Shown one piece after another: positions 22,986 through 27,417 of a stretch of DNA of 46,117 nt. The stretch spans positions 1 through 46,117 of the forward strand of contig CANGYP010000004.1 in the NCBI GenBank assembly GCA_947458235.1, given 5' to 3'. The first letter of the stretch is position 1. Every line of letters begins with the position of its first letter. The notes under the pieces are model-generated. The model was not told the DNA's origin. It did not search any database and saw only the letters and a list, made by a program, of their open reading frames with translations. Origin of the DNA: Alphaproteobacteria bacterium. Lineage in GTDB: Bacteria > Pseudomonadota > Alphaproteobacteria > JAJTHO01 > CANGYM01. The position numbers were made by a program, and so were the translations under genes.

Positions 22986-24359
22986 TCACTCCTGCCACCA
23001 ACCATAGCTTAGGCCCTTGACCCGTTCAAAATGATCTTTTGGGTTATAGGGTTTTGTTTTTTTGGAAATTGTTCTAATATCTAATGCCCCCATGGCCGCC
23101 AAGAGGGTGTATTCAGCCACCAGTTTTTGGGCTTTGGTTGCGGTGAAACGGCGTTGGGCCCCCAGCAGGTCTTGCTCGGCATCAAGGAAATCTAAGGTGC
23201 TGCGAAAGCCCATATCCAATTCTTCCTGCATCCCTTCGGAGGCCTTCAGGGCCGATGTGACCTCTAACGCTGTGGTTTCTAAATCCAGTGTGGCGGTTTC
23301 CAGATCCCGCCATGCCAGCGTCACATCCCGAATCACATCCCGATAAACACTGTCTTTTTGATAGGACGCCCGTTGACGGTCTTTCTTGGCCTGTCGCGTC
23401 CACGCAGACACCATGCCCCCATCATACAAGGGAATGGTTAAAACCACCTTGGTCTCCGCCCCTTCTCGGCGTTGATCGTCAAAGGAAGGATCCTCTTGAC
23501 GGTAGATTTGGGATTCCACGGACAACTCGGGACGATACCCACTGCTGATGCGATCTACATCGGCATCTTTGGCCTCGATGGTGCGATAGGCCGCCTGCAA
23601 CAAGGGGTTTTTGCCCAAGGCGCGCTCTGTGGCCGCCGCTAAGGTTTTTGGGGTTTTGGGGCTTTTGGGAAAATCCCGCAGCAATCCTGGTAACGTTCCC
23701 ACCATGGCCATGAAATCGGCCCGATGGGCGGCCAGCGTGCGTTCCGCTTGACGCAATGCTGTGCGGGCCCGTGCTGCGCGGGATTTTGACAGGGCAACAT
23801 CCGTCATGGTGACATCATCAGCCTGAAAACGGGCCTCTGTGATGGTAACATTTTCCTCTAAGATGTGTTGATACTCACGATGAAACGTCACAATCTCTTG
23901 CGCTGTCACCACACCCACGTAGGCTTTGATGGTGTCTAGCAATACCTGTTGGGTTTGATGGCGCAGGTTTTCTCGGCCCACCGCAATCTGGGCCAAGGCC
24001 AAATCCATTTCGGCCAATGTCTTCCCCCCGCGATACAGGGGTTGTTTATGTGCAACCCCTAAAGTGTAGGGATCCCGTGCGTCAACCCGATCCCCTTTGT
24101 TATCATCCCCAAACCGTTTATCTACCTTTTCATCCACATAGCCCTTGTCCCCAAAAACCTTAACTGTGGGGCGAAACCCTGAAAGGGCTTTGTTGTAGTC
24201 TTCATCGAGGGCCTCAACCTGCAAACGGGCGGCCTTGAGTTGGGGGTGGGTTTGATAGGCAAGGGTGCAGGCCTCTTCCAAGGTCACAGGCAAAGTCTCC
24301 GCCGCCACAGCCCACGGGGCGCAGCATAAAAATACGGCAAACCAGACTCTGGCTGTCAC
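22986..24359 (-). CDS. tolC: TolC-family outer membrane efflux protein
   Basis: Signal peptide-like MTARVWFAVFLCCAPWAVA, LEEACTLAYQTHPQLKAARLQVEALDEDYNKALSGFRPTVKV, repeated internal architecture, LDFLDAEQDLLGAQRRF. GTG start at 24359. Confidence 0.88.
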   Translation of the reverse strand: MTARVWFAVFLCCAPWAVAAETLPVTLEEACTLAYQTHPQLKAARLQVEALDEDYNKALSGFRPTVKVFGDKGYVDEKVDKRFGDDNKGDRVDARDPYTLGVAHKQPLYRGGKTLAEMDLALAQIAVGRENLRHQTQQVLLDTIKAYVGVVTAQEIVTFHREYQHILEENVTITEARFQADDVTMTDVALSKSRAARARTALRQAERTLAAHRADFMAMVGTLPGLLRDFPKSPKTPKTLAAATERALGKNPLLQAAYRTIEAKDADVDRISSGYRPELSVESQIYRQEDPSFDDQRREGAETKVVLTIPLYDGGMVSAWTRQAKKDRQRASYQKDSVYRDVIRDVTLAWRDLETATLDLETTALEVTSALKASEGMQEELDMGFRSTLDFLDAEQDLLGAQRRFTATKAQKLVAEYTLLAAMGALDIRTISKKTKPYNPKDHFERVKGLSYGWWQE

Positions 24360-24367
24360 ACTACCCC

Positions 24368-24381
24368 CCTAAAGCTTTAGG
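24368..24381. promoter_or_regulatory. 14-bp perfect palindrome CCTAAAGCTTTAGG before the tolC-family start
   Basis: Perfect dyad between the stop of the 24385-24882 ORF and the tolC GTG; adjoins the purine-rich ribosome-binding region. Confidence 0.4.
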
Positions 24382-24384
24382 AGA

Positions 24385-24882
24385 TTAGTCGAAGCGGCGT
24401 CCTGTGCGCCCCTCGTCACCAAAGGACCGTTTGCGGGGGGCGGCATCCCGATCCCGATCAGGGCGAAAACCACGGGGACGGTCGCCACGATCACGGTCGC
24501 CGCCTTCGCCACCACCAAAACGGGGCTCGCGACGGGGTCGATCATCATCACGACGATCACCTCGGGGGGTAAAATCACGCTTGCCTTCGGCCTCGGGGGT
24601 TAAGCTCAGGCGAAACTTAATACGGCTGGGACCGGGGGCCGCCACCAACGGCACCGAAGGATGGTCCGAAGACATGGACCCCAGAACAATAATTTTGGTT
24701 TTGTCTTCTGCGGGGTCCACCGCCACCGCCAGATCAAAATCGATGGCAGGCAAGGCATCCTTGCTGCCAAAAAGGGAGGCTTTGTTGGGATTGGCCGCGC
24801 GATCCCGACGCACGGATTCAATGGCATCACAAACATCTTTGACAGTTTGCGCAATAAAATCTTTTAAAGGAGGTGTGGCCAT
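24385..24882 (-). CDS. Uncharacterised protein: Trypco-like N-terminal region plus Arg/Asp/Gly-rich low-complexity tail
   Basis: N-terminus MATPPLKDFIAQTVKDVCDAIESVRRDR...IDFDLAVAVDPAEDKTKIIVLG...RIKFRLSLTPE, then TPRGDRRDDDRPRREPRFGGGEGGDRDRGDRPRGFRPDRDRDAAPRKRSFGDEGRTGRRFD. Confidence 0.75.
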   Translation of the reverse strand: MATPPLKDFIAQTVKDVCDAIESVRRDRAANPNKASLFGSKDALPAIDFDLAVAVDPAEDKTKIIVLGSMSSDHPSVPLVAAPGPSRIKFRLSLTPEAEGKRDFTPRGDRRDDDRPRREPRFGGGEGGDRDRGDRPRGFRPDRDRDAAPRKRSFGDEGRTGRRFD

Positions 24883-24969
24883 ATGAATATACTTTCAAGT
24901 ATTTTTGAAGAAAAGGCACTATGACAGGTTTTGCCTGTCTTTGAAAGCAAAAAAATCAGCTGTATGAGT

Positions 24970-25066: not shown

Positions 25067-26281
25067 ATGACATCCATGAACCGTGTTTTGATCATCGGCG
25101 CAGGGGCGGCCGGATCGGTTGTGGCCAAAAAATGCGCCATGAATATGGATGTTTTTAAGCATATTCACTTGGCCTCTCGCCGTTTGGAAAGCTGCGTAGC
25201 CGTTCAAAAAGAATGCGTATCCCCCATCACTATCTCTGAGGTGGATGCGGACGACACAGCCCAAGTCATTGCCCTGATTGAACAACAAAAGCCCGATTTG
25301 CTGATTAACATGGCCCTGCCCTATCAGGATTTAACCCTGATGGATGCCTGTTTGGCCACGGGCGTGCATTATATGGACACCGCCAACTATGAACCCCGCG
25401 AGGAGGCCAAGTTTGCCTATCACTGGCAGTGGGCCTATCAAGAACGATTCAAAGACAAGGGCCTGATGGCCATTTTGGGCTGCGGTTTTGATCCCGGGGT
25501 GACCAACGTCTTTTGTGCCTACGCCCGCGATCATCTGTTTGATAGCATTGAATTCATTGATATTATTGATTGCAATGATGGCAACCATGGCAAAGCCTTT
25601 GCCACCAATTTCAATCCGGAAATCAATTTACGGGAAGTCACCCAGCGTGGAAAATACTGGAAAAACGGTCAATGGATCGAGGTTGATCCCGTCAGCCTGT
25701 CCCGCATGATTGATTATCCTGAGGTCGGACCCCGAAAATCCTATTTAATCTATCACGAAGAAGAAGAATCCTTGGTGCAAAACATTCCGGGCCTGAAACA
25801 GATCCGTTTCTGGATGACCTTTTCGGATAACTATATCAAACATATGGAGGTCCTTCAGAACGTGGGCCTAACGCGCATTGATCCGGTGATGTATAACGGG
25901 ACGCCTATTGTGCCCATTCAATTTTTGAAACACCTGTTGCCAGCCCCGTCGTCGCTGGCGGAAAACTATACGGGCAAAACCTCCATCGGGTGCGTCATTC
26001 AGGGGCACAAGGACGGAAAGCCCAAAACCATTGTGATTTATAATGTATGCGACCATGCGGCCTCTTTCCGTGAGGTCAAGGCGCAGGCCGTGTCCTACAC
26101 CACAGGCGTCCCCCCCGTTGTTGGGGCCATGATGCTGTTTTCTGGACAATGGCAGGGCAAGGGAGTCTTTAACGTGGAACAACTGCCCGCCAAACCGTTT
26201 TTGGATGAATTGGCACGTCAGGGCCTGCCGTGGCATGTGCGGCAGATTGAGGGGCCCCAGACTTTGGGGCTTTTGCCTTAA
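25067..26281 (+). CDS. Carboxynorspermidine/carboxyspermidine dehydrogenase (saccharopine dehydrogenase-like)
   Basis: VLIIGAGAAGSVVAKKCAMN, DLLINMALPYQDLTLMDACLATGVHYMDTANYEP, GCGFDPGVTNVFCAYA; directly followed by a NspC-like decarboxylase. Confidence 0.88.
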   Translation: MTSMNRVLIIGAGAAGSVVAKKCAMNMDVFKHIHLASRRLESCVAVQKECVSPITISEVDADDTAQVIALIEQQKPDLLINMALPYQDLTLMDACLATGVHYMDTANYEPREEAKFAYHWQWAYQERFKDKGLMAILGCGFDPGVTNVFCAYARDHLFDSIEFIDIIDCNDGNHGKAFATNFNPEINLREVTQRGKYWKNGQWIEVDPVSLSRMIDYPEVGPRKSYLIYHEEEESLVQNIPGLKQIRFWMTFSDNYIKHMEVLQNVGLTRIDPVMYNGTPIVPIQFLKHLLPAPSSLAENYTGKTSIGCVIQGHKDGKPKTIVIYNVCDHAASFREVKAQAVSYTTGVPPVVGAMMLFSGQWQGKGVFNVEQLPAKPFLDELARQGLPWHVRQIEGPQTLGLLP

Positions 26282-27417
26282 TGCCTGCCAAGCCTTGGTA
26301 TACATCCATCAATACGCCCGCTTATGTTGCCGATATCGCGGCCCTCAGGCGGAATCTGGATCGCATTGCCACGCTCAAGGACAAAACAGGCTGTCAGGTT
26401 TTGCTCGCCACCAAGGCCTTTGCCCGTGTGGATCTGTTCCCCCTGATGGCCGAGGTTCTGGATGGCACAACGGCCAGCGGCCTTTACGAGGCGCGGTTGG
26501 GCTATGAAACTTTCGGCAAACAGGTCCATGTTTATGCACCAGCCTTCAGAGATCAGGATATGCTAGACATCCTGCGCTATGCGGATCATATCTATTTTAA
26601 TGCACCTGCCCAGTTGAATCATTTTCGCCACACAATCGGGGCTGATAAACACATCGGCCTGCGGGTCAATCCGGGGTATGGCCTCAGCACCGTGGGGGGG
26701 GATCTTTACAATCCCTGCGCCCCCCATTCCCGTTTTGGCACACTGGCAGACCAGCTGGGCGATGTGGATTGGGATGGGGTGGCTATTTTTCATGTGCACG
26801 CCCTGTGTGAATCCCTTCATGATGGATCTTTGGGGTTAATCCAGCATGTTTCTAAAGCCTTTGCCCCCTATCTGAAATCCGTCAAAACAGTCAATTTCGG
26901 CGGGGGACATCTTTTGAATCATCCTGACTATGATCTTTCTGCCCTTGGGGATGCCCTCAACCGTTTTCAGGATCAACACGGGGTGTCTGTGATTTTAGAA
27001 CCCGGGGGCGGGATTGTCTACAACGGCGGCTATCTGGTGGCCACGGTGTTGGACATTCATCATAATGGGATGCCCATTGCCATTTTGGATGCCTCGGCCA
27101 GTTGCCACCATCCCGACGTGATCGAGGCTGGCTATCGCGCCCCCGTCATCGGGGCGGGCCAAGCTGGTGAACATCCCTATGATTATATCTTGGCAGGCAA
27201 CACCTGTATGACAGGGGATATTTTTGGAACATACAGCTTTCCTGAACCTTTGAAGCAGGGGGATGCTCTTCTGTTCGGGGATGCACTGCATTATACCTTT
27301 GTCAAAAGCACAGTGTTTAACGGCACCCCCCTGCCCGATTTTGGAACCCTGCACGCAAACGGGGTTTACGAGGTTGTGAAACGCTTTGACGACAAAGTCT
27401 TTCGGGGGCGACTGTGA
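26281..27417 (+). CDS. nspC: Carboxynorspermidine decarboxylase
   Basis: TPAYVADIAALRRNLDRIATLKDKTGCQVLLATKAFA, HIGLRVNPGYG, FHVHALCE, VNFGGGHLL, VILEPGGGIVYNGGYLVATVLDI: fold type III PLP decarboxylase of the NspC type. Confidence 0.9.
   Translation: MPAKPWYTSINTPAYVADIAALRRNLDRIATLKDKTGCQVLLATKAFARVDLFPLMAEVLDGTTASGLYEARLGYETFGKQVHVYAPAFRDQDMLDILRYADHIYFNAPAQLNHFRHTIGADKHIGLRVNPGYGLSTVGGDLYNPCAPHSRFGTLADQLGDVDWDGVAIFHVHALCESLHDGSLGLIQHVSKAFAPYLKSVKTVNFGGGHLLNHPDYDLSALGDALNRFQDQHGVSVILEPGGGIVYNGGYLVATVLDIHHNGMPIAILDASASCHHPDVIEAGYRAPVIGAGQAGEHPYDYILAGNTCMTGDIFGTYSFPEPLKQGDALLFGDALHYTFVKSTVFNGTPLPDFGTLHANGVYEVVKRFDDKVFRGRL

Follow-up and report, generated by a model that had tools for sequence, protein, structure and literature searches.

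A putative stand-alone Trypco2-type domain with a genus-confined Arg/Asp/Gly-rich tail, encoded directly ahead of tolC in an alphaproteobacterium

A small gene lies directly ahead of a tolC-family gene on the minus strand of the 46,117-nt alphaproteobacterial stretch analysed here (contig CANGYP010000004.1, positions 1 to 46,117; hereafter the window). The features of the locus are listed below.

24385..24882, minus strand: gene for a Trypco2-like protein of 165 aa, ATG start (ORF and translation; congener orthologue at L031:281-790; purifying selection)
24592..24882, minus strand: putative Trypco2-like domain, residues 1-97 (leave-out profile; hhalign; AF2 topology at low confidence)
24388..24591, minus strand: R/D/G-rich polyampholyte tail, residues 98-165, predicted to be disordered (composition; pLDDT; found only in the genus)
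24470..24518, no strand assigned: short imperfect direct repeats in the DNA coding for the tail, at the site of the congener's 18-nt insertion (repeat search, alignment)
24360..24384, minus strand: 25-nt gap to tolC with a G-rich ribosome-binding stretch (sequence, congener alignment)
22986..24359, minus strand: tolC-family outer-membrane channel gene, GTG start at 24359 (OEP 4e-55; TIGR01844)
24918..24946, minus strand: candidate promoter TTTCAA-17 nt-CATAGT (congener alignment, by eye)

The sequence-only reading of this locus had placed a small ORF 25 nt ahead of a tolC-family GTG. Both genes are confirmed, the first by its ORF and translation (the stop codon occupies 24385-24387) and the second by models of TolC proteins, with 249 bits against a cut-off of 225 for TIGR01844 (NCBIfam) and 4e-55 for OEP (Pfam). 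The small gene has tolC, lon and a divergent dehydrogenase-like gene as its neighbours in the window, and a long antisense ORF (24404-24886, +) lies opposite to it. The divergent genes on the + strand at 25067-27417 appear, from translations only, to encode saccharopine-dehydrogenase-like and carboxynorspermidine-decarboxylase-like proteins of polyamine synthesis. Read directly, the N-terminus of the Trypco2-like protein has no evident signal peptide.

The sole other genome of the genus that was compared, the alphaproteobacterial MAG RE-18aug17-138 (L031), encodes an orthologue of 169 aa directly ahead of tolC, with a gap of 26 nt, and the GTG start of tolC and its spacing are kept. The two proteins are 94% identical overall and 97% identical in the N-domain, compared with 82% for TolC. 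The N-domain codons carry 23 synonymous and 3 non-synonymous changes (dN 0.018, dS 0.40), and those of the tail 14 and 6, respectively (dN 0.055, dS 0.38). Conservation in the congener and the excess of synonymous over non-synonymous changes in the N-domain demonstrate that the ORF is a real gene under strong purifying selection, and not a chance ORF. One insertion of 18 nt and one deletion of 6 nt separate the tails of the two congeners, the composition being kept but not the length, and the arrangement of the tail with tolC is known from these two genomes only.

Approximately 70 nt upstream of the start codon are also kept between the congeners, including the candidate promoter, the hexamers and spacing of which are identical in the alignment, as read by eye; further upstream the loci diverge. 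The match of this element to the consensus is weak and it is absent from the list returned by a consensus promoter scan. At the contig end upstream of the congener orthologue, a direct repeat, GCGGACATTTCTAATTTGC, is present in two copies approximately 25 nt apart (L031:95-145) and resembles the end of an insertion element. A terminator scan between the Trypco2-like gene and tolC found none. Co-transcription is plausible, given the gap of 25-26 nt, the lack of a terminator and the retention of the pair in both congeners, and most likely the two genes share a bicistronic message that starts from a promoter just upstream of the Trypco2-like gene. The tie to TolC is one of gene linkage, and any functional link to the channel would be hypothetical.

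Direct searches with the window protein gave no match in Pfam at E<=10 and nothing above threshold in NCBIfam, PADLOC or PHROG. A PDB sequence search gave no credible relative, and a plasmid tblastn gave no match. Whole-protein searching returned many weak hits in relatives, mostly in the tail, which resemble composition noise; the later profiles were built without the tail. AlphaFold (AF2) with three sequences predicted, at low confidence, a helix (residues 6-30) followed by strands at residues 46-56, 61-68 and 86-93, together with a low-confidence tail. The two models, with pLDDT values of 52 and 53, are too poor for proof of the fold, and Foldseek with the poor model (pLDDT ~52) found no significant fold match.

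Relatives of the N-domain were obtained with profiles. With the profile of the two congeners, a search of 385 genomes of the class detected a single relative of almost full length (L071, 1e-4), and a Trypco2 search over the phylum gave a protein (L066, identical to L086) above the Pfam gathering cut-off for Trypco2 (PF19631), with 26.5 bits against 24.2, a value that the window protein does not reach. This protein has in common with both L071 and the window protein the LKDF start and the SRIKF end. Stepwise profiles led to 19 proteins, encoded in proteobacterial genomes, on an IMG/VR contig and by annotated phages of Bacteroides and Riemerella (including L071, L086, L088-L090, L045, L036, L106, gp45 of phage BS-TP2, Riemerella phage proteins and L137 of genome G002, amongst others), and single-protein scans of viral contigs detected one contig with a family member. 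The family is sporadic and consists mostly of stand-alone proteins of 100-140 aa with the pattern "LKDFI...FDxAVTV...SRIKF"; it shares the LKDFI helix, the FDxAV strand and the SRIKF strand with the window protein over approximately 100 residues. Its members have no R/D/G tail and the loci inspected never adjoin tolC, unlike the window gene.

When both the window protein and its orthologue were left out, a profile from five relatives still picked out the N-domain of the window protein from 5245 sequences, at 7e-6. With a profile from ten relatives, from which the window protein was again left out, the N-domain scored 24.5 bits (7e-6; residues 6-94 on model positions 3-100), whereas the best of 2000 shuffled N-domains scored 7.2 bits. 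In hhalign, the window pair aligned with the relatives at 96% (score 51; maximum of 59 column shuffles, 15) and the relatives aligned with canonical Trypco2 at 94% (score 44; maximum of 59 column shuffles, 17.4), or at 95.5% when all 19 members were used. The observed score was never reached in the 59 column shuffles of each comparison, and the probability never rose above ~2%. Eleven of the 19 members have a Pfam match to Trypco2 at E<=1, mostly weak and in one case above the curated cut-off, and no other Pfam family matches more than one of them. Among named NCBIfam models, only NF033533 (lone7_assoc_B, type VII secretion-associated) gives any hit to the window protein, at 13.7 bits and E 0.078, which is far below the cut-off of 35 bits and is not counted as evidence of membership. 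With one other member of the family, this makes two weak hits for the model (E 0.055-0.078), which may represent another distant branch of the superfamily.

These comparisons argue that residues 1-97 are a Trypco2-type domain that has diverged strongly and belongs to a stand-alone branch of the superfamily, with homology that is transitive through the bridging family; membership is by descent through this branch and not by the Pfam criterion. A resemblance to Trypco domains had been noted in the sequence-only reading, and it holds as remote homology to Trypco2, although only via the bridging family: the profile comparison succeeds in two steps (96%, then 94-95%), but made directly between the window pair and canonical Trypco2 it gives only 32%, with no Pfam match. 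The window protein is like Trypco2 PF19631 in its predicted order of a helix and then three strands, in its alignment through the bridging family and in being a small protein without a signal peptide, and differs in lying below Pfam detection, in lacking a trypsin, MoxR or vWA neighbour and in its long R/D/G tail. On the strength of these alignments, Trypco2 ancestry can be regarded as established, but as that of a new variant within a poorly understood family and not of a new system.

Trypco2, or trypsin-co-occurring domain 2, was described from trypsin/MoxR conflict systems (eLife 2020, PMC7159879), and Trypco domains have been called adapter domains (PNAS 2024, PMC10907252). A canonical locus (L097:202-7033) contains Trypco2, a 513-aa trypsin-like protein, an AAA ATPase and a 1280-aa protein that ends in a sulfatase-modifying-factor-like domain. 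The trypsin-like protein was identified from its translation and is not recognised by Pfam, and the layout agrees with the published description (PMC7159879). Next to the window gene, neither a trypsin-like peptidase of a MoxR-vWA/VMAP system nor a MoxR or vWA gene is present, and the Trypsin_2 matches of the window genome, one DegP-like and two others, are all on other contigs. The neighbours of stand-alone members vary, and comprise gat genes, a suf cluster, a restriction locus with Fic, plasmid- or phage-like replication genes and phage repressor regions (mostly from translations). In the loci inspected, no neighbouring gene recurs throughout the family, so that context points to no binding partner of the domain. 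The suggestion of a conflict or effector role for the window gene is unsupported, given the lack of a trypsin, MoxR or vWA neighbour and the varied contexts of the relatives.

The linkage to tolC is found in both congeners and is absent at every locus inspected outside the genus. The nearest taxon with a relative is G002, of the same order, in which the gene (L137) adjoins a HipA-like gene and not tolC (from translations); the tolC of G002 sits among apparent pcm, rhodanese, DUF2497 and valS genes, without a Trypco2-like gene.

A further possibility, albeit a doubtful one, is that a stand-alone Trypco2-like gene of phage or defence origin was captured and domesticated beside tolC, its original role having been in phage-host conflict and its linkage being incidental. 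This explanation concerns origin and can hold together with an adaptor function. Relatives are present in Bacteroides and Riemerella phages and on a viral contig, some of them beside repressor-like genes, and another has hsdR-like, Fic-like and specificity-subunit-like genes at its locus (from translations). In addition, the canonical Trypco2 of L097 adjoins a trypsin-like protein and an AAA ATPase, and the family is sporadic in the class, occurring in 15 of 385 genomes. Nevertheless, other relatives are placed among housekeeping genes, for example with gatA and gatB on either side or within a cluster of suf genes (from translations), and the window copy has been kept vertically in both congeners under strong purifying selection. 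Within the phage relatives, gp45 of Bacteroides phage BS-TP2 (L107:4001-4390; PQ571275.1 28049-28438; 129 aa) is annotated as phosphonate diphosphatase PhnM; it belongs to the stand-alone family and the PhnM label is probably a misannotation. At L105:6573-7626, the gene directly after that of a weak family member (the L034 region) encodes a protein of 204 aa that resembles it in the pattern of strands and has no match in Pfam; the two are possibly a related pair.

The C-terminal tail had been described as dominated by Arg, Asp and Gly, and these residues do make up 66% of it (20 R, 13 D and 12 G of 68), compared with 41% in the next-richest 68-residue stretch among 39 non-overlapping ORFs of the window. 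The pLDDT is <50 across most of the tail, which is predicted to be disordered. The short internal duplications reported in the 3' DNA are likewise present, GGTCGCCACGATCACGGTCGCC occurring once, at 24480-24501, amid weak, imperfect repeats of 13-15 nt. The tail is confined to the genus among the relatives found: the 17 relatives outside it end within approximately 40 residues of the last strand and none is R/D/G-rich, and a search of both congeners for a second gene with a DRGDR tail motif gave none that was convincing. It follows that any function of the tail is recent. The expectation that homologues would share the tail thus fails outside the genus, yet the homology of the domain stands.

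An RNA-binding regulator of its own bicistronic message, which would tune the translation of tolC and make the linkage functional, is an unlikely explanation of this architecture. The tight, conserved spacing to tolC, the abundance of Arg and Gly in the tail and the stronger conservation of the N-domain than of TolC are all consistent with it. However, no RNA-binding fold or motif was found in the window protein, the charge of the tail is near balance (22 positive and 17 negative residues), and in G002 the surroundings of tolC are different and lack the gene, the relative sitting at another locus. RNA-binding proteins with RGG/RG tails have densely repeated RG or RGG motifs, whereas the 68 residues of this R/D-mixed tail contain only three RG dipeptides and two GR dipeptides, so that RNA binding of the classical RGG type does not suggest itself. 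By composition, weak multivalent contacts with RNA or charged proteins would be a better fit.

It is improbable that the Trypco2 resemblance is convergent, arising from a common helix-plus-hairpin pattern and not from shared descent, as the domain's shortness and the weak direct alignment might suggest; in none of the three comparisons did shuffled or reversed controls come near the observed scores, and the LKDFI start and SRIKF end are common to independent relatives. A spurious ORF, or a leader ORF serving solely for translational coupling to tolC, is hardly credible despite the short gap and the long antisense ORF, with dN/dS far below 1, a conserved protein sequence and remote homologues in the same frame; the spurious and antisense readings were both rejected on the codon evidence.

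The explanation favoured here, with modest confidence, is that of a small cytosolic two-part protein, in which a Trypco2-type adaptor-like domain is joined to a genus-specific disordered tail and the gene for which is probably co-transcribed with tolC. The N-terminal ~97 residues, with one helix and three strands, would form the folded adaptor-like domain, and the C-terminal ~68 residues, in which Arg is intermixed with Asp/Glu and with Gly, would be disordered. Both genes would be expressed from one bicistronic message, from the promoter just upstream. On the model proposed for Trypco domains in conflict systems, the folded domain may act as a protein-protein adaptor, to which the tail may add weak multivalent contacts with RNA or charged partners; the adaptor role is proposed by analogy, and the contact with nucleic acid from composition. 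A bolder version, in which a domain of conflict systems has taken on a housekeeping role as a cytosolic adaptor, has gained a new polyampholyte tail and, through operon coupling, serves in this genus as a physical scaffold or a regulator for the biogenesis of TolC or the localisation of its message, is considered very improbable.

The Trypco2 superfamily extends well beyond the trypsin/MoxR conflict systems behind its name, with a stand-alone branch that is mostly missed by Pfam and occurs in both bacteria and phages. In the tail, an old domain has acquired a disordered region within a single lineage, and the case is both clean and recent. Moreover, if the adaptor role is true, the stand-alone members would be simple, one-gene cases in which to find the binding targets of the domain.
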